Positions 2,773 to 16,533 of a stretch of 64,000 bases of DNA are shown piece after piece. The DNA lies in NCBI GenBank assembly GCA_913061435.1, contig CAJXUK010000009.1, positions 1 through 64,000 on the forward strand, written 5' to 3'. The notes below the pieces were generated by a model, which was given only the letters and a program-made list of their open reading frames with translations, did no database searches and was not told the DNA's origin. Both the position numbers and the translations under genes were made by a program. How positions within the stretch are numbered: position 1 is the first letter of the stretch; every line of letters begins with the position of its first letter. The DNA comes from an uncultured Thalassolituus sp. (GTDB taxonomy: Bacteria; Pseudomonadota; Gammaproteobacteria; Pseudomonadales; Oceanobacteraceae).

Positions 2773-3270
2773 ATGTTAGAACGTTGCAAAACAGCACAAG
2801 AGCGATGGGGTGGAGTACATAAGCTAATTGACGTTTGGTTAAACGAGCGTCAAGACGTCATTGTCCTTTTTTGTGGTATCAGCACACTTAAGCCATTTTC
2901 ACCGCGAGAAACCCCAGTATCGATAAAAATCCAAGCCTTCTGTCAGATTTTAATGGACTATTGTTCAGCAGGTCACTTTGAAATTTATCAGCAGCTACTC
3001 GACGAAGCTAAACATTATGACGATGGTGGCTTAGAACTGGCCAAACGAGCTCTTCCGGTACTCGAAGAAATGACCCAGCAATGTGTTGATTTTAACGACA
3101 AGTACGATAGCGCTGAACACTGCCTAGAAAAAATATCCGACCTCAGTAAAGATTTATCCGATTTAGGCGAAACTCTCAGTGAGCGCTTTGAGCTAGAAGA
3201 CCAGCTAATTGAAAAACTACATAACGTTCATCGTGACTTGGCTTTAGATTCTGTTCAACTAAAAGGGTAA
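2773..3270 (+). CDS. rsd: Regulator of sigma D, Rsd/AlgQ
   Basis: Binds RNA polymerase sigma-70 and so favours alternative sigma factors; called AlgQ in Pseudomonas, where it affects alginate and siderophore genes. The 165-residue all-helical protein has the family signature near the N terminus (CKTAQERWGG then LIDVWLNERQ), the SPRETP turn and a long C-terminal helix pair. E. coli Rsd has 158 residues. The ribosome site AAGGAATCGCGACC precedes the ATG. The WD40 lipoprotein gene starts 2 bases after its stop, so the two are probably co-transcribed. Pseudomonas keeps algP nearby as well, as here. Confidence 0.92.
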   Translation: MLERCKTAQERWGGVHKLIDVWLNERQDVIVLFCGISTLKPFSPRETPVSIKIQAFCQILMDYCSAGHFEIYQQLLDEAKHYDDGGLELAKRALPVLEEMTQQCVDFNDKYDSAEHCLEKISDLSKDLSDLGETLSERFELEDQLIEKLHNVHRDLALDSVQLKG

Positions 3271-3272
3271 TC

Positions 3273-4241
3273 ATGTCTTCGGTAATACGATCACTGCTTA
3301 CAAGTACGGTACTGTCAGCAAGTTTATTAATAAGTGCCTGCGGTACCGACACTCAACCAGACCACTTTGACGAACTAGCCAAACAAGGCGCTTATTCGCT
3401 ATGCATTAATCAAACTGCAAATGCTGCCTTTATTGGTTCTATCCACCATGGCGGCAGTTTTTGGCGAATAAATCCGCTGGACCGCTTGTATAACTGGAAT
3501 CATAAATCTGATGAATTTAGCAACATTTTAAGCTGTAGCTTCTCCCCAGAAGGTAATTTCGCTGCTACTACAGATAATCGCACCATTGCTTTGTGGAACA
3601 GTAAAACAGGAGAAAATTTAGGTTTGTGGAACGCCCCCGGTGATATAAAAGACATCAATTTAAGTCGTGATGGGCAGTTTGCACTGTTAGCCATGACAGA
3701 TTACACAGCCACCTATTTTAATATTAAACAAGGCGGAGTGCAGCGCACATTACGTCACGAAGGTGTGGTGTACGATGCCAGCCTAAATAGCCAAAGTACC
3801 TTAGCTGCTACTGCAAGCGATGATTTAACGGCACGAATTTGGGATTTACGCACAGGTAAAGAAATACAACGACTTATGCATAACAACCAAGTTAGGCGCG
3901 CTCAAATTTCTGCAAACGGTCGTTTTGTTTTCACATCTGCACTTTCAGAACCCGGGCGTTTGTGGGATACCCAGAGCGGTAAAATGATCCGAGAGTTTAC
4001 TATTAACAGCGGTTTTTATAATGCCATACGTTTTAATACAGATAATACACAACTCTTAACCGGAACCAGCGCCGGTAAAATTCAGCTATGGGATTTAAAA
4101 GATGGGGTAGTCATTAAATCTTGGCAAGCGATACCAAGAAATACTTGGGTAAGTAATAACGTCATGATAGAAGACGTAGCTTTTACCCCAAATAGCTATT
4201 TAGCGGGCGCTTCTAATGGTCGCTTGTTTCACTTAAATTAA
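3273..4241 (+). CDS. WD40-repeat lipoprotein
   Basis: A 322-residue protein with a lipoprotein signal (hydrophobic stretch then LISAC, lipid-accepting Cys23), so it is anchored to a membrane facing the periplasm. The rest reads as a beta-propeller: blades with typical WD-type ends such as IALWNSKTGE, ARIWDLRTGKE, RLWDTQSGK and IQLWDLKDG. Such propellers act as protein-binding platforms; no catalytic residues are apparent. It starts 2 bases after rsd and likely shares its transcript. No specific function can be assigned. A terminator-like hairpin separates it from the convergent DUF4124 gene. Confidence 0.8.
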   Translation: MSSVIRSLLTSTVLSASLLISACGTDTQPDHFDELAKQGAYSLCINQTANAAFIGSIHHGGSFWRINPLDRLYNWNHKSDEFSNILSCSFSPEGNFAATTDNRTIALWNSKTGENLGLWNAPGDIKDINLSRDGQFALLAMTDYTATYFNIKQGGVQRTLRHEGVVYDASLNSQSTLAATASDDLTARIWDLRTGKEIQRLMHNNQVRRAQISANGRFVFTSALSEPGRLWDTQSGKMIREFTINSGFYNAIRFNTDNTQLLTGTSAGKIQLWDLKDGVVIKSWQAIPRNTWVSNNVMIEDVAFTPNSYLAGASNGRLFHLN

Positions 4242-5629: not shown

Positions 5630-5739
5630 TATCCTTAAAGGTTATTTAAATTCTAATTCTCAACTAAAATAAATGGATAGTAATGTGCTTATAAGTATAA
5701 TTACAAAATATCTCTTACTTTAGTACTCGAGGAAATTCT

Positions 5740-6921
5740 ATGGTCGCTCGCAAATCACCAACAAAAAAGCCTGTAGCTAAAAAAGCTGCTACCAAAACAA
5801 CCACCGCTAAAAAAGTTGCTACTAAAAAAGCTACTGCTAAAAAAGCACCGGCCAAAAAAGCTACTAGCAAAAAAACTCCAGTCTCTAAAGTAACGTTAAA
5901 TCCTGCTGAACTTTTACAGAAAGAAATTACAGCACTTGAAGTAAAACTAGAAAAAGCGCGCCAAAAAATGATGGCTGATGCTGATAAGGCATTAGCAAAA
6001 GCCAAAACAGCACAAACTAAAGCCGCGGCTGCTCTTACCAAAGCAAACGCAGCAAAGAAAAAAGCTGCTGACAAAGCAAAAGCCAAAGCGACTGCAGCAA
6101 CCACTAAAGCCTTAGTAAATGCTAAAGAAAAAGTCGAGCTAGCAAAACAGAATGTAGCAGAAACCAAGCAAGCCTATTTAAATGCCAAAGCTGATGCCAA
6201 GGCATTCAAAGAAGAAGCATTAGCCGCTGCTAAAATTGCAAAAGCTAAAGCCGCTGCAGAAAAAACACAACAAAAAGCCGCTGCCGCTGCCGCTAAAAAG
6301 CAAGCCGCTGCAGAAAAAAAAGCAGCCACTGCTGCAAAGAGAAAAGCGTTAGCAGAAGCCAAAAAGGCAGAAGCTAAAGCTAAAAAAGCTGCTGCGATGG
6401 CAAAAAAGAAAGAAGAAGCAAAAGCAAAAAAAGAAGCTGCAAAAGCTAAGAAAGCTGCTGCAAAACTAGCTAAAAAAGCGCCGGCTAAAAAAGCTCCAGT
6501 AAAAGCCACAAGCACTGCAGCAAAAAAAGCGACTGCTAAGAAAGCACCTGCTAAAAAAGCTTCGGCAAAGAAAGCTCCGGTAAAAAAAGCGACTGCTAAA
6601 AAAGCCCCTGCTAAAACAGCAAGTAAAACTGTCGCTAAACCAGCAGCAAGCAAAAAAGCACCTGCTAAAAAAGCACTTGCAAAGAAAACGGCAACCAAGA
6701 AAACAACTGCAAAAAAAGCGACTGCCAAAACCGCTGCAGCCAAGCCAGTAACAGCCAAGCAAGACACTCCAGTGGTAACCCCAGCGGTTAAACTACCAGT
6801 TACTGAAAAGCCAATAGATAAAACAGCTTCTCAAACTAGCCCAGCACCTGCGAGTGAAGCGAAAGCAACTAGCGATACGCCAGCTTCAAAGCCTAGCGGT
6901 TTGTTTGATCAAAACAGCTAA
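5740..6921 (+). CDS. algP: AlgP, histone H1-like Ala/Lys-rich protein
   Basis: A 393-residue protein made almost entirely of Ala, Lys, Pro and Thr, with many AKKAPAKKA-type repeats at both ends and an Ala-rich predicted coiled coil in the middle (about residues 60-235). Pseudomonas AlgP has the same layout and is a histone H1-like DNA-binding regulator linked to alginate expression. Binding to DNA through the lysine-rich tails is expected from composition. The start has a good site (CGAGGAAATTCT) and a strong terminator follows the stop. Low-complexity coding makes this locus prone to length variation. Long open frames on the opposite strand are artefacts of the GCT/AAA codon bias. Confidence 0.85.
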
Positions 6922-7042: not shown

Positions 7043-9148
7043 TTAATCTACTTTACCTTCTATCCAATAGGTAAATAGCTTTTTAATCGTCTTATCCTTT
7101 TGCTTCATCTTAATCCAATTTCTCATAAACAACTCAAACGAAAGATCATCTTTATTAATTGGATACGCCATTGTTAAAGCGGGAATCAAAGGTTTGGGCG
7201 TAACCACGGTATAAGTTGGATTCAATAGAGTCCAAGCCGAAGCTGTGGGTGCACCAAATAACATAGCATCGATATGTTTATACTCATCTTTAAAAAAGAG
7301 CCTTGGGGTTGATATTTTCCAGGCTTTACCATTAATAAAATTCTGTGCTATGGCTTTCTCGTAAAAGAACTTTTCTGGAATACCAATAATTAAGTCCTTA
7401 CGACTTATAATTTTTTCCCATTCAACAAATTCAGCACGGCGCTCATCTTTAACCACAAAGGCTATATGCTGCGTGCTATACGGCAGTGATAGCGAGAACT
7501 CCTTCATGTTGTCAGGAATTACCGGAATCCCAGTTGTAATATCCAAATAACCCGAGGCCAGTAATGGCGCAGCTTGTTTACGAAAAATACGAACAAACTC
7601 AATACCAACACCTAAATCCCCTGCTAACTGATTCATAATTTCAATATCAAAACCCACCAACTTGCCGTCGCTGTTGTTAAAAGAATACGGTAGGTCGTCT
7701 CTGAAATAACCCACTCGTAAAAAACCTCTTTCTTTAACTCGGTACAGCACTTCGCTAAATGGTTGGACTACGGCACTATCAGGGCTGGGCTCTAAGACAT
7801 ACTTAGTGGGGATATCATCTAATAAAAAATCGCGATTAATAAATTTACTATAGCCCTCGTATTGATAACTAATGGCTTCAAATGTGTGTTTTAAAGCAAT
7901 TAACGAAGATACACAGATCAACGGAATAATGATCATGTTGCGGCCAAATTGACCCCACTTAAAGGTAAATCCTTTAATCATGCTGGTTGCAATTAACAAA
8001 GGCATACATACAGCAAAAATCACGGATAGTAAGGCTGAGAAGCGAGCAACTACTAGATTCTCAGCAACTAAAAAGAAATCAAACATAGAACTGGAAACAT
8101 TAAACAGCTCCAATAAATTCGGTACCGCAATAATACTGGTGCCAAATAACTGTGGCAGGCCCGCAATAATCAAGGTGACGTAATCATTAAATGAAATATG
8201 TGCACCAGAAAACCATGCAGCGAATAAAGCAAACAGCAGAGCTAACAACTTACCACCTACGGGAAGGCTGTAGGTAATGGGCACAATGATGCTAGGAATT
8301 TGGGCAACCTCTTTATTACTAGCATTTAATTCTGCGATCAGTAGTTTTGTTTTTTCTACAATCACGGGGATCACCACAAAAAAACTGCCGGTAGCAAATG
8401 CCGTCACCATAGCTTCGCGCGAAGCTCTCATTATTTGTCGATAACCAAAAGGGGTAACGATCGCAACGACTGTGGGCAAAACAACAAAGGTTAGCAAAAA
8501 TACCAACACTGCAGAGGTCACAATATAAACCAACAAGCCATCAACATCAGAAGGGTCAACGGTTGCTGCAGCTCTTAATCCAATACAAAAAATGCCAAGC
8601 GGTGCAAAGCGCATAACAATAATATTCACATTAGCAACCGCGGTCTGTAGATTTCCCAACAGTAATAACGAGTGTTTTTTTCTATGCACAGTCATAAGAC
8701 CAATTCCCATAAAAATACTGAACGTCACTACAGAAGGAATGAGGGCATTAGCAAATGAATGAAACGGGTTTGAAGGTATAAACAGATCAACCAAATTAAA
8801 CTCTTTGCTCACCTTAACGGTTTCAACACTGTAAAACTCAGCCGTAACCCAGTCTGGAAAAGCTATTGGCGACAAAAAGATAAACACAAGCACAATCGCT
8901 ACCGCAATTACTAAAATCAATAAACTTTGCCTAAACGTACTGCTTAACCCTGTTGCAGATAAACCACCAATACCTACGATTAACGACAGTGAAATATAGG
9001 GCAAGGCGGTCATTTGCAGCAGCATAACAAATGCATTGGCAATGGCATCAACCCCAAAAAAAACCGTAGAAGTATAGGCACCAATAACTAGCCCAAAAAC
9101 CATAGCTAACAGAATACGAATAAACGGAGGGATTTTTTCAAACAGCAT
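7043..9148 (-). CDS. Dicarboxylate/amino acid:cation symporter fused to SBP_bac_3 domain
   Basis: A 701-residue fusion. Residues 1 to about 425 form a DAACS/GltP-type symporter: repeated membrane segments, a re-entrant region near AFATGSFFVVIP, and NLLELFNV. About 45 linker residues follow, then residues 470-700 are a family 3 solute-binding domain with the hallmark start GFLRVGYFRDDLPYSF and GKLVGFDIEIMNQLA. The binding domain has no signal of its own and would be held outside the membrane by the last helix, presumably feeding or gating the transporter. The ATG at 9148 is chosen because TTTAGGACTAAT precedes it; the frame is open to 9235 but that would overlap the divergent gene. The substrate is unknown; dicarboxylate or amino acid is inferred from family. 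Confidence 0.85.
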   Translation of the reverse strand: MLFEKIPPFIRILLAMVFGLVIGAYTSTVFFGVDAIANAFVMLLQMTALPYISLSLIVGIGGLSATGLSSTFRQSLLILVIAVAIVLVFIFLSPIAFPDWVTAEFYSVETVKVSKEFNLVDLFIPSNPFHSFANALIPSVVTFSIFMGIGLMTVHRKKHSLLLLGNLQTAVANVNIIVMRFAPLGIFCIGLRAAATVDPSDVDGLLVYIVTSAVLVFLLTFVVLPTVVAIVTPFGYRQIMRASREAMVTAFATGSFFVVIPVIVEKTKLLIAELNASNKEVAQIPSIIVPITYSLPVGGKLLALLFALFAAWFSGAHISFNDYVTLIIAGLPQLFGTSIIAVPNLLELFNVSSSMFDFFLVAENLVVARFSALLSVIFAVCMPLLIATSMIKGFTFKWGQFGRNMIIIPLICVSSLIALKHTFEAISYQYEGYSKFINRDFLLDDIPTKYVLEPSPDSAVVQPFSEVLYRVKERGFLRVGYFRDDLPYSFNNSDGKLVGFDIEIMNQLAGDLGVGIEFVRIFRKQAAPLLASGYLDITTGIPVIPDNMKEFSLSLPYSTQHIAFVVKDERRAEFVEWEKIISRKDLIIGIPEKFFYEKAIAQNFINGKAWKISTPRLFFKDEYKHIDAMLFGAPTASAWTLLNPTYTVVTPKPLIPALTMAYPINKDDLSFELFMRNWIKMKQKDKTIKKLFTYWIEGKVD

Positions 9149-9206
9149 ATTAGTCCTAAATTTTAACAGCACACATCTACGGATTATCATCAAGCCTACA
9201 AGGCTG

Positions 9207-11618
9207 GTGCTTTGTGCTATATTATATATCAACACGTCTATTATTATTGGCTCTTACGTGACTCTGATAACACATATTTTTCGATTATTATTGCTATATC
9301 TTTGCGCTGCTCCAGCAATCGCTGAAGACATTTCAATTCACCTCAAGTGGTACCACAAATTTCAATTTGCGGGTTACTATGCAGCACAAACACAAGGTTA
9401 TTTTGAAGAAGAAGGCTATCAAGTAACCTTATTAGAAGGTGGTCCTGAAACTAATCACATACACAGCCTCATAAACAACACCAGTGAATACGCTGTATTT
9501 AGCAGCGAATCCTTAAACTCGCTGGCTCTAAATGCCCCTATTGTGATTGTTGCTTCCATATTTCAACACGCTCCCGAAGCATTAATTACACTCAAAGACA
9601 ATAATGTGGAAAGTCTGACCGACTTTCGTGGCAAAACACTCATGCTAGCCGACCCTAACATATCAGGTCATATTGCATCCATGTTGTTAAAAAATGGATT
9701 ACACCCTGGTGATTATAAAAAATTAGATTATGACGGTGACGTACGCCGCTTAATTAATGGGGATGTGTTTGCGATCTATGGCTATGTGAGCAACGAGCCT
9801 TTTAGCATTGAACAGCTGGGTTATGAGGTTGATGTCTTTCGGCCCCAAGATTTTAATATTAACTTTTATGGCGATAGCTTAGTAACATCCCAATCAGAGC
9901 TAGATGAGAATCCAGAACGTGTTGCTGCAATCCGCAGAGCAGTTATTCGTGGTTGGAGCTATGCAATTAAAAATACCGATGAAATCATCCAACATATTCT
10001 AAGCCTTCCAACCGAAAACCCTGCGCCCTTTAATCTTGAGCATCAGCGCTTTGAAGCAAACGCAACCATAGACCTAATTGATGCCAATCAAATCCCTATC
10101 GGTTTATCCAGCCCAACAAGATGGGCGGCTATGATCGACACATACAATCAAGTTAATAATGGCCAAGCAGTCTTCAAACCAGGCACTATTTACAATGAAT
10201 TTCATCAAGATAAGCAATGGGTACAATACTTTTTTATCTCTTTGGCCATTGCTATTGTCCTTATTACCACTCTTTATTTTTGGAACAGAACGCTAAAGGC
10301 ACGGCTAGATGTTGCTATAGAAAGTTTAGAAAAAGCCGTATTTGAAGACAATCTAACCAGTATGAAAAACCGCCCTGCATTGATTTTATTTATTGAAGAA
10401 TGCCGATTAAAACAACATAAAAATGAATATTTAGCCATTTTAGATATTAGCGGCTTGCAAAAAATTAACAAAGAAAAGGGCTTTCGTGAAGCTGATCAAT
10501 TAATACGTAAAGTCGCAGAAGGCTTAACCGAGCATCGGTTTAAATCTAGCAAGGTTTACAGCTTATATGCAGGGAAATTTGCAGTCGTTGCTAAGTCGAG
10601 TCAGTACGAGAAGTTTGCAGCCAATATCAATAATTTAGTTGCTAAAATCACACAAGACATCAATACCATTTCGCTACGCTCAGGGGCTGTTAAGCTTGAT
10701 TTAACACTCGACAACTCAAGCCTAACCACTCGTGCAGAATTAGCCTTACAACACGCTAAAGACACCTCAGCAGAAACCCTCGTTTTCTTTGATCAATCGT
10801 TTGCAGAGCGCATAGAAAAGCGAGAAGCCCTACTTGTAGATGTTCTTCGTGGCATCGAAAACAATGAATTTGTACCTTTTTATCAACCCAAGATAAATTA
10901 TAAAACGGGCACAATTCAGGGAGTAGAAGCACTGGTACGCTGGAATCACCCTGAACAAGGGCTTCTCCTGCCGGGTCAATTTTTACCTGTAGTTGAAACA
11001 GCACCAGAGATAATGAATAAACTGGAAGTTGCTATCTTTAATGGTGTAATGACAGAAGCTCCCAAATTAATAGCGTACTTTTCTAAAAATTCAGACTTCC
11101 GAATTTCAATCAACTTATCCTCCATCCAATTCAATCGCACCAACCTAGTGCACGACTTGCTTGAAGGCTGTAAATTTCATGGAGTTCACCCTAGCCATAT
11201 TGAATTCGAACTTACTGAAAGCCTGATGCTTGAAAACCTCAGCATGGCCATTGAAATTAGTGGTGAATTACAAGCAGCAGAATTCAGTGTTGCTTTAGAT
11301 GATTTTGGTACTGGTTACTCATCACTTGCGTATATACAAAACCTACCGGTTAATGTAATTAAATTAGACTACTCTTTTGTTAAGAAAATACCTGCAGACA
11401 AGCGCTCAGGGTTTGTGGTTGAGCACATTATTTCACTGGCGCACAAACTCAATTTAGAAATCGTAGCGGAAGGTGTAGAGCAAAAAGTTCAACTGGATTA
11501 CCTAGGTAACTTGGGCGTTGATATTATTCAAGGCTTCTATTTTTACAAACCTATTGCGTTAGTTGATTTGTGTATGCTTGAGCGTGAAGTCAACGTGGAC
11601 AGTTATAAAATATCATGA
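9207..11618 (+). CDS. NMT1/THI5-like binding domain, degenerate GGDEF and EAL protein
   Basis: An 803-residue membrane signalling protein. A signal segment (about 20-39) leads to a periplasmic NMT1/THI5-like substrate-binding domain (about 41-330, start HLKWYHKFQFAGYYAAQ), one membrane helix (341-360), a GGDEF-like domain (about 378-530) and an EAL domain (about 545-790). The GGDEF signature is replaced by YAGKF near 453, so cyclase activity is not expected. The EAL domain keeps EAL (EALVRW), DDFGTGYS, KLD and AEGVE, consistent with active c-di-GMP phosphodiesterase. A periplasmic ligand, perhaps a pyrimidine- or thiamine-precursor-like molecule by family, may control it. Start is GTG 9207 or GTG 9258. 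It is coupled to the next gene by ATGA. Confidence 0.88.
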   Translation: MLCAILYINTSIIIGSYVTLITHIFRLLLLYLCAAPAIAEDISIHLKWYHKFQFAGYYAAQTQGYFEEEGYQVTLLEGGPETNHIHSLINNTSEYAVFSSESLNSLALNAPIVIVASIFQHAPEALITLKDNNVESLTDFRGKTLMLADPNISGHIASMLLKNGLHPGDYKKLDYDGDVRRLINGDVFAIYGYVSNEPFSIEQLGYEVDVFRPQDFNINFYGDSLVTSQSELDENPERVAAIRRAVIRGWSYAIKNTDEIIQHILSLPTENPAPFNLEHQRFEANATIDLIDANQIPIGLSSPTRWAAMIDTYNQVNNGQAVFKPGTIYNEFHQDKQWVQYFFISLAIAIVLITTLYFWNRTLKARLDVAIESLEKAVFEDNLTSMKNRPALILFIEECRLKQHKNEYLAILDISGLQKINKEKGFREADQLIRKVAEGLTEHRFKSSKVYSLYAGKFAVVAKSSQYEKFAANINNLVAKITQDINTISLRSGAVKLDLTLDNSSLTTRAELALQHAKDTSAETLVFFDQSFAERIEKREALLVDVLRGIENNEFVPFYQPKINYKTGTIQGVEALVRWNHPEQGLLLPGQFLPVVETAPEIMNKLEVAIFNGVMTEAPKLIAYFSKNSDFRISINLSSIQFNRTNLVHDLLEGCKFHGVHPSHIEFELTESLMLENLSMAIEISGELQAAEFSVALDDFGTGYSSLAYIQNLPVNVIKLDYSFVKKIPADKRSGFVVEHIISLAHKLNLEIVAEGVEQKVQLDYLGNLGVDIIQGFYFYKPIALVDLCMLEREVNVDSYKIS

Positions 11619-13366
11619 TTATAAACAACACAGCAGGTCGTAATGACTTTCATAGCCTAGAGCAACAATTTAAACATTTTGTTTTGTCTGACCCTGATAC
11701 CAGTATCGGTTTAGGTGATGCGGATTATCTTGATCAACTGGGCAACCCCAGTCTACAAGCATTAAAAACAAACACTGCTAAAGCTAAAGAATTATTGCTG
11801 GCGATTGAATCATGCGATGCGAAAGCATTCGATGATGAAATTTTTAATCGTCAACTCGATCTAGACTTAATGGCGCGTTATTTAAAACAAGAGATATTCT
11901 TTGCCGAACTCGAACAAGATGGTCAACCACAACGCTGCCGCAAACCCGGTGGCGTAGATGGAATTAGTGAAGGTATATTTCAGCTTTTTGTTAATGACGA
12001 AAGAACCGCCGAAGCGCGCTTAGACAATATTCTATCTCGCCTCCAGCAAGCTCCAAACTATCTAAAAATCGAAGCGAGTGTGATTACTCAGCCGATTAAA
12101 CGCTGGCGTGATATAGAAGTAGAGCAAGGCGAAGGCTTGCCTGATTTATTCGCCACGATTTATAACTGGGCCAAAGATACCGACTATCCAAATGCCGACG
12201 ATTTGCAACAAGCAATTAGCGCCTGTAATACTGCACTCGAAGTCTACTTAAACGACTTAAAAACTCGTGACTGCCTAACTGATTTTACCATTGGTGAAGA
12301 CAAGGTTATTGAACTATTAGCACTGCGTAATATCAAGCAATCCCCTGGCGAACTGATTCAAATGGCCCGTGGCTTTATGGCCGATACCCAAGGCTTATTA
12401 ACCAGTCTAAATAAGCGCCTGTGCAAAAAGTATGAGCTGGCTGCAGATACCAGCGATGAACAACTGCATGAGTTTTTAAATGAGAAGTTCGCCGCCAAAA
12501 TAAAAGAAGGCAAACTAGACTCTGTACTGGATTATTATTCTGATCAGATTCAATCGATCAATAACTTCATCGAACAGCGCCACTTATTTGCCATTCCAGC
12601 GCAGCAAGAAATTCGCCTTTTACAAACCCCGAGCTTCTTAGAACCGGTTATACCTGCTGGCGCAATGTGGCCACCATTAGCACTTCGCCCGGGCAAGAAA
12701 ACCAGCCTAGTCTATTTAACGCTTAAACAAGATCAGCTAGCAGAACATACCGAACTGGGCATTCCGGTAATGATGATTCATGAAGGCATCCCAGGACACC
12801 ACTTACAGTTTGCCACCGCCGCACAGCACCCGTCTTTCATTCGTCGAATCTTTTCAGCCAACGAACACGCCGAAGGCTGGACCACCATGCTAGAAGACTA
12901 CATGCTCGATGTTGGCTACATCAGCGACGATTTAGTCGACGAAGTGCGCTTCATCGCCAAGCGTGAAATGTCTCGCTTAGTTGCTCGCGTTGGCATCGAC
13001 TTATACTTCATGACAGGTGAACGTGATTATTTAAATGTTGGCTTAGATCTTGGCTTTAATTCAGCAGACGATTACAGCGAAGATGTATTTGAAAACGCCG
13101 CCAAACTGCTAAAAAAAGCCACAGGCTTTACCGACGGTCGTGTACAAGCCGAACTAAACTGGTACAGCACCGAGCAAAGCTACCCGCTGAGCTACCTAAC
13201 GGGCAACCGCTTAGTGTGGAAATTAAAGCAAGACATCCAAGCAGCCAATAAAAAAGACCTCGACGCCCTAGAACTCGACCAAGCCTTCCACAAAGTGTAC
13301 TTAGAGTCTGGCTGCATGCCGGTAGAAAGCTTACGCTTAGTATTTGAACACGAAGGTTTTTTATAA
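11615..13366 (+). CDS. DUF885-family putative metallopeptidase
   Basis: A 583-residue protein of the DUF885 family. It carries a zinc-site-like HEGIPGHH motif near residue 388 (MIHEGIPGHHLQ), followed by a conserved EGWTTMLEDYM segment about 40 residues later that could supply the third metal ligand. Family members are thought to be metallopeptidases related to thermolysin-like carboxypeptidases, mostly uncharacterised. There is no signal peptide, so it is probably cytosolic. The start ATG overlaps the stop of the EAL gene (ATGA), implying translational coupling. The substrate is unknown. Confidence 0.85.
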   Translation: MIINNTAGRNDFHSLEQQFKHFVLSDPDTSIGLGDADYLDQLGNPSLQALKTNTAKAKELLLAIESCDAKAFDDEIFNRQLDLDLMARYLKQEIFFAELEQDGQPQRCRKPGGVDGISEGIFQLFVNDERTAEARLDNILSRLQQAPNYLKIEASVITQPIKRWRDIEVEQGEGLPDLFATIYNWAKDTDYPNADDLQQAISACNTALEVYLNDLKTRDCLTDFTIGEDKVIELLALRNIKQSPGELIQMARGFMADTQGLLTSLNKRLCKKYELAADTSDEQLHEFLNEKFAAKIKEGKLDSVLDYYSDQIQSINNFIEQRHLFAIPAQQEIRLLQTPSFLEPVIPAGAMWPPLALRPGKKTSLVYLTLKQDQLAEHTELGIPVMMIHEGIPGHHLQFATAAQHPSFIRRIFSANEHAEGWTTMLEDYMLDVGYISDDLVDEVRFIAKREMSRLVARVGIDLYFMTGERDYLNVGLDLGFNSADDYSEDVFENAAKLLKKATGFTDGRVQAELNWYSTEQSYPLSYLTGNRLVWKLKQDIQAANKKDLDALELDQAFHKVYLESGCMPVESLRLVFEHEGFL

Positions 13367-13468: not shown

Positions 13469-14998
13469 ATGCATGTCTTACAAACCTTAATCTCAAGTAA
13501 TACTAAAATCAGCGCACTCCTAACGGGCACATTAATTCTTTCAGCTTGCGGTGGCAGTTCTAATGATGACAACACAAACCCAAGCATCAGCGATGTTGTA
13601 CCCAACAACAGTGTAATGCACTCTAGAAGTGTCACCATCCGTGGCTTAGCCTCCGATAATAAAGAATTGAAGTCTGTTGGTATTAGTCATAACAAGCAAT
13701 TAATCAATGCTGATTTAGAGCAAGATTCATTCTCAGCAACTATTGAAGCAATTGCCGGTATCAATGCTTATACAGTCATTGCAACCGATACTGCGGGTAA
13801 TGAAACGACTCATGAAGCAAGTTTTTATTATGGCTCTCAAGCCACTGCTGGCGGTGCGCACTCGGCCATTATTAAAGATGAAAAAATATACGCATGGGGC
13901 AGAAATAATAAAGGGCAGGTAGGCATTGGTGCTGTAACAAAAATAAGTGATGATCCAGAAACTGCTACCGCAGAACACCCGATCATACCTACACTAATAA
14001 CTAATCAAGCTGATACAAAATTTGTCTCTTTAGCATTTAACCAAAATGCTTCGTCAGCATTGGATGCGAATGGACATGTCTGGAGCTGGGGCGATGGCGA
14101 TGATGGCCAGTTAGGCTTAGGGATTGCTAACGATAATGTGATTGATGAAACTGATTACAGCAACCCACAAAAAATTAAAAACCTTACGGATATTGTTGCG
14201 ATTAACCGCGGCTATGATCACATGCTTTTATTGAAAAATGATGGCAGCGTTCTGGCTTTTGGCAATAATAAAAATGGTCAACTGGGTGATGGAAGCTCCG
14301 CAAATAGTGACACCGCCGTTACAGTGCAAGGCCTTTCTGAAGTTGTACAAATTTCAGCCGCCGTTAGTTCTTATGCTGTTGATAAAGATGGCCGTTTGTG
14401 GGCATGGGGAAACAATAAATACGGACAATTGGGCCAAGGTACGTCCGATAATGAAGTGCATAACACACCGGTTGAGGTGGTATTTGATGAAGCAGTTATC
14501 AGCGTTGCCAGTGGCAAAGGTCATGCTTTAGCCCTCACCCAATCCGGGAAAGTATACGCTTGGGGCTTAAACGCAAGCAGTCAAGTGGGTATGAGACCCA
14601 GAGACACGAGTACCATTGATGAACCATGGGAAAACTTTGTACTTACGCCAAAACTTATACCTGGGCTAGACGATGCCGTCGCCATATGGGCCAACGGCAA
14701 TCAAAGTTTTGTGAAACGAGCCGATGGCAAAATTTATCCGTGGGGACAAAATATGCTAGGCACTTTAGGTATTGAAGAAGATGGAAATGTTATTGAGCCA
14801 GTTAGCCCGATCTTAGAACTGAATAATGTTGTCGATTTAGGTAATGGTGCTCTGCACACGCTGGCAATTCGTAACGACAATACACTCTTTGCATGGGGCT
14901 GGAGTTTTGAAGGTTCTTTAGGGGGCAAAGATCTCCTTAACGCTTGGACATACAGACTGCCGCTAACAATATCCACAGAGGCGCCATTGACAGAATAA
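13469..14998 (+). CDS. RCC1-repeat lipoprotein
   Basis: A 509-residue exported lipoprotein: the signal ends in LILSACGG, giving a lipidated cysteine. An Ig-like region with DTAGNETTH-type strands (about residues 35-125) precedes a seven-bladed propeller of RCC1 repeats, whose blade ends are visible as IYAWGRNNKGQVG, VWSWGDGDDGQLG, VLAFGNNKNGQLG, LWAWGNNKYGQLG, VYAWGLN, IYPWGQN and LFAWGWSFEGSLG. Bacterial RCC1 propellers are of uncertain function and commonly act in binding. The upstream region has inverted repeats and a hairpin over the ribosome site. Confidence 0.85.
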   Translation: MHVLQTLISSNTKISALLTGTLILSACGGSSNDDNTNPSISDVVPNNSVMHSRSVTIRGLASDNKELKSVGISHNKQLINADLEQDSFSATIEAIAGINAYTVIATDTAGNETTHEASFYYGSQATAGGAHSAIIKDEKIYAWGRNNKGQVGIGAVTKISDDPETATAEHPIIPTLITNQADTKFVSLAFNQNASSALDANGHVWSWGDGDDGQLGLGIANDNVIDETDYSNPQKIKNLTDIVAINRGYDHMLLLKNDGSVLAFGNNKNGQLGDGSSANSDTAVTVQGLSEVVQISAAVSSYAVDKDGRLWAWGNNKYGQLGQGTSDNEVHNTPVEVVFDEAVISVASGKGHALALTQSGKVYAWGLNASSQVGMRPRDTSTIDEPWENFVLTPKLIPGLDDAVAIWANGNQSFVKRADGKIYPWGQNMLGTLGIEEDGNVIEPVSPILELNNVVDLGNGALHTLAIRNDNTLFAWGWSFEGSLGGKDLLNAWTYRLPLTISTEAPLTE

Positions 14999-15082: not shown

Positions 15083-15156
15083 CAAAATTATTACCGACTT
15101 AAACACATAAAAGACACGTGCTGTTTTTAATCTCATACCCTCACAAGATCAACGTA

Positions 15157-16533
15157 ATGAAAAACCCTTATCTCTTTATTGCCATTTTTATCATGTTAAG
15201 TGGCTGTCAGTTCTCTAATAAAAAAAGCGATGACAGTCATAATGCTTCAACGAATACCCCAGGAAATACTAACCCGCCACTGAACTCTGAAACGATCAAC
15301 TGGAAGCCTGTAGCAGGAAATGCAACTGTAGAATTTGATCCCAGCTTTTCATTTTTACAATTTATCCCAACCCTCGATTTAGCTGAGCTAGATAACGCTT
15401 CCAAAGGCCGCGAGTTATTCATAGGTGAGTGGACTGCGGCGCCTGGCTCAAGACCCCTCTTAGATGGACTAGGGCCATTAACCATCGCTACTGCATGCAG
15501 TAGCTGTCACTTTGTATCCGGTCGAACGCCAAGTTTAGAAGCCAATGGCGAAGTCGGTTTAGGTTTATTGTTTCGCTTAGGTGATGAATTGGGTAATCAC
15601 GACCCTTATTACGGCGGGCAACTGCAAACCGCAGCCACCACAGGCAGCAGTGAAGGTCATGTGAGCTGGCAGTTTGATGCTAACAAAAAACCTGTATTTA
15701 CCCTCACAACCAATCAAATGGAGTTGGCAAAAGGCATTAGCCTTGGCCCACGTTTATCACCACAATTGGTCGGTATTGGTTTATTAGACTTAGTTTCTGA
15801 GCAAGATATTTTAGCCCGCGAGGATGAATTCGATAGCAACAACGACGGCATTTCTGGGCGAGCACACTGGCGCAGCGTTAATGGCGAAAAAGTATTAGGT
15901 CGTTTTGGCTGGAAAGCCATGCAACCCTCTTTAGAGCACCAAAGCGCCGGCGCATTTCAACAAGACATGGGGTTAACTACCAGTATCAATCCCAACGAAC
16001 CTTGTACGCCTTTGCAAACAATCTGTGCAGAGCAACCTAATGGCGGCAGCCCAGAAGTTTCTGACGCATCCTTATTTGCCATCAACGACTTTTTAACCTT
16101 ACTGGCGGTACCGGCAAGACGTATTAATGATCAAAATGAATTCGATCAGGGGTCTCGCATCTTTGCTGACATTGGCTGTGCCCAATGTCACCAACCCACT
16201 CTGACCACTTCAGATTCTAAGCAATATCCGTTATTAGCCAAGCAATTAATTTATCCTTATACCGATTTGTTACTGCACGATATGGGTGAAGACTTGAGCG
16301 ATAACGTGAAAGAAGGTGATGCTAATCCCCGCGAATGGCGCACCCCGCCTTTATGGAGTTTAGGCTTAATCGAAAAAGTGGAAGGCTCTCGTTTCTTACA
16401 CGATGGTCGCGCAGCCACTATAGAAGAAGCCATTCTGTGGCATGGTGGAGAAGGCTCAGCCGCTAACAATAATTTTGTAAAACTAGCGCCCGCCGAAAAA
16501 GAAAAGCTATTAAGTTTTTTAAGATCAATCTAA
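15157..16533 (+). CDS. Di-heme oxidoreductase lipoprotein (DUF1111)
   Basis: A 458-residue envelope protein of the DUF1111 di-heme oxidoreductase ('thiol oxidoreductase') family. It has a lipoprotein signal ending in LSGC and two c-type haem motifs, CSSCH (first Cys near 114) and CAQCH (first Cys near 341). The C-terminal part contains the conserved WRTPPLWSLGL and FLHDGRAATIEEAILWHGGE segments. The protein should transfer electrons in the periplasm; the natural substrate is unknown. ATG 15157 is chosen because the signal begins there; an upstream in-frame codon at 15118 would add 13 non-signal-like residues. Family relatives often sit beside imelysin genes, none of which is present here. Confidence 0.85.
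   Translation: MKNPYLFIAIFIMLSGCQFSNKKSDDSHNASTNTPGNTNPPLNSETINWKPVAGNATVEFDPSFSFLQFIPTLDLAELDNASKGRELFIGEWTAAPGSRPLLDGLGPLTIATACSSCHFVSGRTPSLEANGEVGLGLLFRLGDELGNHDPYYGGQLQTAATTGSSEGHVSWQFDANKKPVFTLTTNQMELAKGISLGPRLSPQLVGIGLLDLVSEQDILAREDEFDSNNDGISGRAHWRSVNGEKVLGRFGWKAMQPSLEHQSAGAFQQDMGLTTSINPNEPCTPLQTICAEQPNGGSPEVSDASLFAINDFLTLLAVPARRINDQNEFDQGSRIFADIGCAQCHQPTLTTSDSKQYPLLAKQLIYPYTDLLLHDMGEDLSDNVKEGDANPREWRTPPLWSLGLIEKVEGSRFLHDGRAATIEEAILWHGGEGSAANNNFVKLAPAEKEKLLSFLRSI

Follow-up and report, generated by a model that had tools for sequence, protein, structure and literature searches.

A predicted glutamate-transporter-fold importer with a tethered binding domain in Oleispira, and its mostly accidental neighbourhood with a putative c-di-GMP phosphodiesterase and a DUF885 peptidase

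Introduction

The published secondary transporters that depend on a substrate-binding protein (SBP) are TRAP, TTT and TAXI-GltS. A 2025 paper asks why there are not more kinds, suggests that an elevator mechanism may be needed and names further classes as a test of that proposal (PMC12344293). Here, a three-gene neighbourhood is described from the first 64,000 nucleotides of contig CAJXUK010000009.1 (assembly GCA_913061435.1, uncultured Thalassolituus sp.), a stretch referred to below as the window. It comprises a gene in which an SDF-type membrane domain is joined to an SBP_bac_3 domain (the fusion), a divergent gene for an NMT1-GGDEF-EAL protein (the EAL protein) that is predicted to act on cyclic di-guanosine monophosphate (c-di-GMP), and a gene for a putative zinc peptidase of the DUF885 family (Table 1). 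An initial annotation of the window had proposed that all three answer to one extracellular nutrient. The reading that we hold, with some reserve, to be the probable one is that the three genes did not evolve as a single module, and that they would represent an Oleispira neighbourhood of a tethered importer, a ligand-gated phosphodiesterase and a DUF885 peptidase.

Several described systems resemble parts of this neighbourhood. In TAXI-GltS and BP0403-GltS, as in the fusion, a binding protein is found in one chain, or is translationally coupled, with a transporter, there a glutamate transporter for which an elevator has been modelled, and transport of the SBP-dependent secondary type has been proposed (PMC12344293, in the portion available). 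In the same portion, the TAXI part of TAXI-GltS is placed at the GltS N-terminus and 14 fusions are counted in InterPro (PMC12344293), whereas here the SBP family 3 domain lies C-terminal to a predicted GltPh fold, past an extra helix, the ion motif is lost, and candidate relatives number in the hundreds (512 reported stretches, full length unchecked for some). The predicted fold is shared with AncInt (9bgy) and with GltPh of the DAACS (SLC1) family, including helical hairpin 1 (HP1), the break in transmembrane (TM) helix 7 and HP2. According to the accessible part of its description, AncInt is an uncoupled ancestor with Na+-independent transport that keeps the Na+-binding residues and the Asn-Met-Asp (NMD) motif (PMC12668577); the fusion differs in having Pro at the N310 position and Lys or Thr at the T314 position, and in carrying an attached binding domain.

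For the NMT1 domain of the EAL protein, the closest solved sequence relative is a ThiY-type FAMP-binding protein (3ix1, pyrimidine precursor; E 2.2e-15), which differs in being a stand-alone, non-signalling binding protein and whose ligand is not transferable to the NMT1 domain at such distance. Binding proteins of the ThiY type are importer partners. RmcA of Pseudomonas aeruginosa carries a GGDEF-EAL part. Like the EAL protein, RmcA is a GGDEF-EAL protein with a periplasmic domain of the periplasmic binding protein (PBP) clan, but that domain is an SBP_bac_3 domain which senses L-arginine, in place of NMT1. According to the available part of a 2022 review, SBP_bac_3 was the one family among the 27 of the PBP clan for which work on c-di-GMP networks existed (PMC8846402).

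Architecture and motif loss of the fusion

In the fusion, a binding protein and an elevator-fold membrane unit are combined in a single chain, as seen from Pfam (scanned at E 0.001; PF00375 cut-off 27.9 bits) and from a predicted model. At this threshold only SDF and SBP_bac_3 are reported, which places the protein outside the TRAP, TTT and TAXI-GltS subfamilies. The modelled membrane part aligns with 9bgy (VIA Z 39.0, root-mean-square deviation 3.0, 369 residues) and with GltPh 6uwl (Z 33.9), and an 80-row fusion profile matches three canonical SDF paralogues with a probability of 99.6% over 355 columns. The closest solved relatives of the binding domain are AncCDT-1 proteins (5t0w). Among the Oleispira copies, nonsynonymous divergence (dN) ranges from 0.087 to 0.112 in the SDF part and from 0.061 to 0.142 in the binding domain; because it is low in both, both parts are probably in use.

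The most distinctive feature of the membrane part is the loss of its ion motif, which was followed in 151 relatives. The position of N310 in the NMD motif is Pro in 149 of them, the D position is not Asp in at least 148, and the position of T314, which is K300 in the window protein, is occupied by Lys in 116 relatives and by Thr in 31. At residue 369 of TM8, 133 relatives have Arg and 14 have Lys (147 together), and no well-conserved Asp or Asn was seen in the TM8 columns examined for counterparts of D394, R397 and N401, where the register is uncertain. The Ser-rich HP1 motif is also lost, P290 and W312 are conserved in all 151 relatives and G299 in 148, and NMDGT is kept in the five readable canonical paralogues. 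The NMD motif is described as highly conserved and as the nexus of solute binding (PMC12668577, in the part available). The name "symporter" in the initial annotation fits the SDF profile (PF00375) and the predicted GltPh fold, whereas the hallmark ion/substrate motif is gone.

In SBP_bac_3 domains, an Arg and an Asp usually hold the amino acid. The Arg position of the fusion's binding domain is Asn in 70 and Arg in 54 of the 151 relatives, and the Asp position is Gly, Ser or Thr in 142. Considering that the NMD motif has lost both its N and its D while K300 and R369 are well conserved, the cargo is probably an anion other than an alpha-amino acid, and coupling probably bypasses the classical Na1/Na3 sites; the importer is probably sodium-independent. 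Co-evolution of K/T300 in the elevator with N/R547 in the binding domain was considered as well and set aside as uninformative, since the observed combinations (70 relatives pair K with N, 24 pair K with R and 29 pair T or S with R) come down to only two independent pairs on the tree.

Distribution and origin of the fusion

Relatives of the fusion span several phyla. From the reported stretches 80 loci were kept, 79 of them with the fusion in a single open reading frame (ORF), and the extended set comprised 152 distinct loci. The full-length fusion was found in 17 of 293 genomes of the order and 10 of 369 of the class (E 1e-40). Searches in the family of G433 and in the class of G439 recovered it from 57 of 246 and 2 of 55 genomes, respectively. 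Closer to the window, 55 genomes were searched for the fusion, the EAL protein and DUF885, and none of the 28 among them that belong to other genera of the same family had a full-length fusion. In trees built from 151 of the 152 rows (the omitted row being 600 amino acids or shorter) and from 37 selected rows, the Oleispira copies cluster with Colwelliaceae, and lateral transfer of the fusion is likely. Transfer into Oleispira from within Colwelliaceae, to which the trees point, was examined and not retained: an approximately unbiased test did not reject 22 Colwelliaceae/Alteromonadaceae rows as one group (p 0.231), which had been picked after the first tree. Nesting of the Oleispira copies inside Colwelliaceae is not established.

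Among the 152 loci, MetG is found at -1 in 32, RcsF at +1 in 47 and TrmO at +2 in 47. In many Colwelliaceae (e.g., L055:5462-11333) the fusion stands in line with MetG, named by its sequence start, on the 5' side and with RcsF and TrmO on the 3' side. A gene for a RimK-like ATP-grasp protein occurs near the fusion in seven loci of Deltaproteobacteria/Thermodesulfobacteriota (L104 at 3239-4240, L114, L116, L117, L119, L129 and L130).

No description of an SDF-SBP_bac_3 protein was found in the open-licence literature searched, and InterPro may list the architecture. The fusion is an unproven candidate for a new form of SBP-dependent secondary transport, proposed from sequence and a model. The family makes the elevator-requirement proposal directly testable, since its predicted fold is that of GltPh, it consists of a single polypeptide and it has members in named Colwellia and Thalassotalea strains; it also offers naturally occurring forms of the glutamate-transporter fold that lack the classical ion motif. 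It is possible, though somewhat doubtful, that besides TRAP/TTT and GltS there was at least one further independent union of an elevator with a binding protein, in a class that came to stand repeatedly opposite a c-di-GMP sensor.

The predicted phosphodiesterase and the DUF885 peptidase

Within the EAL protein, Pfam places a PBP-clan domain and a GGDEF-EAL part in a single chain, and a signal sequence and a TM segment were recognised by inspection. Eight EAL residues that catalysis is expected to need, numbered in an 803-amino-acid reading (E574, N636, E668, D698, D699, K719, E755 and Q775), are invariant in five copies. The GGDEF motif is degenerate in all five (YAGKF or YGGKF), so that only the EAL half is likely catalytic. 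The initial proposal of c-di-GMP lowering fits both features, and the best reading of the protein is a ligand-gated c-di-GMP phosphodiesterase that would be controlled independently of the fusion.

The DUF885 protein matches 3u24 by profile (E 5e-22), and its HEGIPGHH motif and E417/E420 are invariant in nine rows. DUF885 is placed in a zinc-peptidase clan in the available part of PMC12572635. By inspection, no signal peptide was seen in eight of the nine rows, and the ninth (L048) has a hydrophobic stretch before an internal Met. The protein is probably cytoplasmic, with a putative peptidase activity, and the proposed processing of peptides from an extracellular nutrient is difficult to reconcile with such a location.

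Conservation of the three-gene neighbourhood

The full-length fusion was found in 7 of the 55 genomes, the DUF885 subfamily of the window in 8 and the full-length EAL protein in at least 5, among the matches listed, which were ranked by E. The genus set comprised six Oleispira genomes (G000 to G005), where G000 is the window genome and G004 is 71% complete. All three genes are present in four of the six (G000, G001, G003 and G005) and adjacent in three (G000, G001 and G005). The fusion of G003 stands 3.9 kb past the DUF885 gene with three genes intervening; in G002, the fusion is absent and two genes separate the EAL and DUF885 genes; and G004 has neither the EAL gene nor a DUF885 gene of the window type. 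The EAL and DUF885 genes are neighbours in four of the five genomes that possess both. The adjacency in G001 can be regarded as ordinary synteny, since a 19-kb stretch of that genome follows the gene order of the window in 15 of its 16 ORFs. G004 also holds two remote fusion homologues of other subtypes (L045:8235-10388 and L046:8085-10277; 31-32% identity) and no orthologue.

Outside the genus, neither the NMT1-EAL gene nor the DUF885 gene was found at any of 77 fusion loci, viewed with flanks of up to 8 kb and less at contig ends; one of the loci (L074) has a different GGDEF-EAL gene three genes from the fusion. A DUF885 profile run on 19 fusion-bearing genomes outside Oleispira recovered no close copy of the window protein and distant matches in two (E 2.3e-15 and 6e-11). 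The genes flanking the DUF885 orthologues of G011, G019 (two) and G023 correspond to neither the fusion nor the EAL partner. Conservation of the trio, which the initial annotation had named as a check on its proposal, therefore fails in the neighbourhood search, and a single nutrient response of the three genes is rejected. As far as found, the three genes occur jointly only in some marine Oleispira, and the trio is mostly a neighbourhood accident behind the tidy divergent layout of one genome.

c-di-GMP genes beside the fusion

Of 145 loci with a divergent -1 gene to compare, 14 have a GGDEF or EAL domain in it, whereas the remaining nine positions up to five genes away give 4 of 1089; the cyclase of L088 is counted at -3 rather than -1, and the +5 count includes the EAL gene of G003 (L052). 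Three lineages are involved, with NMT1 in Oleispira, dCache-GGDEF in a ten-row Thalassotalea clade and CHASE4-GGDEF in two type-B loci, and their sensor parts are mutually unmatched (best E 0.011). The dCache match lies under the Pfam cut-off and is unreported for three scanned proteins. In L088, the ORF at 7135-7806 and the next two minus-strand ORFs form a membrane GGDEF gene in pieces, through decay or assembly error.

Counted by family, the enrichment has a Fisher P of 0.019 (2/34 vs 2/542). For three of 35 divergent families, a binomial test gives P 0.008 at a background of 1.2% and 0.015 at 1.5%, and 0.056 or 0.094 when 72 families are counted; the 1.2% background is itself an estimate from genes per genome and 33 GGDEF matches in G000, and such matches range from 14 to 59 per genome in ten genomes. 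The outputs are opposed, a predicted phosphodiesterase in Oleispira against cyclases with GGEEF elsewhere. No c-di-GMP gene was seen beside the fusion in the last 20 loci (19 of its own order and one of G439), and adjacency as a general rule was consequently dropped and retained as a rival explanation only. The divergent c-di-GMP genes of the three lineages, a pattern seen post hoc, are suggestive only.

Alternative explanations

The preferred reading, of a tethered importer beside an independently controlled phosphodiesterase and a peptidase, builds on the domains, the predicted fold, the motif loss and the neighbourhoods given above. The family-3 binding domain, tethered through the extra helix to a GltPh-fold elevator, would capture a scarce solute and pass it to the elevator, forming a self-contained importer. 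Binding of a ligand by the NMT1 domain would be relayed by the TM helix and the degenerate GGDEF domain and so alter the activity of the EAL domain, and the DUF885 peptidase would ride on the phosphodiesterase transcript in the window genome. In this scheme, the topology, transport, cargo charge, promoter and regulation are inferred. Several points weigh against it: ligands, transport and c-di-GMP turnover are all predicted; K300 is not universal, given the 31 relatives with Thr; the TM8 register is uncertain, with the sequence allowing R369 as the counterpart of R397 and the ends of the structural alignment placing R397 near 371; the Arg of the binding domain persists in 54 relatives; a survey, in its available part, predicts SBP_bac_3 proteins to be amino-acid-specific (PMC9602780), at odds with a cargo other than an amino acid; and for dN/dS, which was tried for the fusion, dS is saturated in most comparisons, leaving only dN usable. 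The survey and the PF00375 and PF00497 matches above cut-off would also suit a conventional Na+/acidic amino-acid symporter to which an amino-acid-binding domain happens to be joined. Given the almost universal Pro at the NMD N position and the intact NMDGT of the five canonical paralogues, this explanation is very improbable. The loss of the NMD and Ser-rich HP1 motifs could alternatively mean that the SDF part no longer transports and serves to anchor or oligomerise a receptor made of the binding domain, which we consider unlikely, as the model still shows HP1, the broken TM7 and HP2, P290, W312 and G299 are conserved and dN in the SDF part is low.

With regard to the relationship among the genes, a single module in which one extracellular nutrient is sensed, imported and processed by the products of the three genes could draw on the adjacency in three Oleispira genomes and on the frequent pairing of the EAL and DUF885 genes. 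It is very improbable in view of the 77 loci outside the genus without the neighbourhood, the 19 fusion-bearing genomes without a close DUF885 copy, the displaced fusion in G003 and its absence from G002, and the DUF885 protein without a signal peptide by inspection. A link between two genes only, whereby the fusion is tied to a divergent c-di-GMP enzyme that has been recruited repeatedly with different sensors, fares better: the excess at -1, the three unrelated sensors and the lowest binomial value favour it, and among 60 loci examined after the idea arose, two gave the new CHASE4 case. Its post hoc origin, the family-level Fisher value, binomial values reaching 0.094, the empty last 20 loci and the opposite outputs speak against it, and we regard it as a minority possibility, on a par with the anchored receptor.

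Gene starts, promoter and neighbouring genes

All domains named in the initial annotation, namely SDF and a binding domain on the minus strand and NMT1, GGDEF, EAL and DUF885 on the plus strand, were matched in Pfam (Table 1). The start Met of the fusion is common to four Oleispira copies. Of the ORFs of four EAL orthologues, two start at the codon of GTG 9258, one starts one codon earlier and that of G003 extends further upstream, and GTG 9258 is more likely the start than GTG 9207. The latter would sit 5' of the likely transcription start, because the promoter-like sequence TTGTGCTATATT lies at 9212-9223; it is found at the same place in G001, G003 and G005 (four of five copies, the window counted). 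The 58-base divergent region described earlier derives from GTG 9207, and a region of 109 bases is more likely; the corresponding gap is 304 bases in G001 and 457 in G005. The reported ATGA coupling of the EAL and DUF885 genes is confirmed by their overlap at 11615-11618, and this 4-base overlap was seen in the window genome only, the spacing being 12 bases in G001, G003 and G005.

A shared divergent promoter was considered and rejected: since G003, with its fusion located elsewhere, also keeps TTGTGCTATATT before the EAL gene, the data lend no support to a control region common to both genes, and the EAL gene probably has its own promoter. A generic promoter scan gave 7 sites against a mean of 17.1 in shuffles, i.e., fewer, and was not used.

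Table 1. Predicted features of the three genes and their domains, in window positions
Feature	Position	Strand	Basis
SDF-SBP_bac_3 fusion	7043..9148	-	701 amino acids (aa), ATG 9148; PF00375 130.4 bits and PF00497 61.2 bits, above cut-off
SBP family 3 binding domain, aa 466-698, presumably periplasmic	7055..7753	-	Profile match to AncCDT-1 5t0w, E 2e-46
Extra helix, aa 398-425	7874..7957	-	Helix in AlphaFold model; would bring C-terminus to periplasm (topology inferred)
GltPh-fold membrane domain, aa 8-392, with HP1, broken TM7, HP2 and TM8	7973..9127	-	AlphaFold model, predicted local distance difference test (pLDDT) 83.5, predicted template modelling score (pTM) 0.75
Promoter-like element TTTGTGCTATATT (TTGTGCTATATT shared)	9211..9223	+	5' of the EAL gene
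NMT1-TM-GGDEF(degenerate)-EAL protein	9258..11618	+	786 aa, GTG 9258; Pfam, start via orthologue alignment
NMT1/THI5-like domain	9360..9983	+	Pfam 151.3 bits
Degenerate GGDEF domain (YAGKF)	10344..10769	+	35.8 bits
EAL domain, expected catalytic residues present	10842..11552	+	201.3 bits
DUF885 putative zinc peptidase	11615..13366	+	583 aa; PF05960 170.7 bits

Ahead of the trio in window coordinates, positions 5740-6921 of the plus strand encode a 393-amino-acid, Lys/Ala-rich histone H1-like protein whose HC2 match lies under the cut-off, and the antisense ORFs at 5715-6167 and 6174-6767 are probably mirror artefacts of the repeats in that gene. On the other side of the trio, the plus strand carries genes for an RCC1-repeat protein with a lipoprotein-like N-terminus (13469-14998; 182.4 bits) and for a di-haem oxidoreductase (15118-16533; DHOR 251.5 bits), both of which are collinear in G001, G003 and G005.

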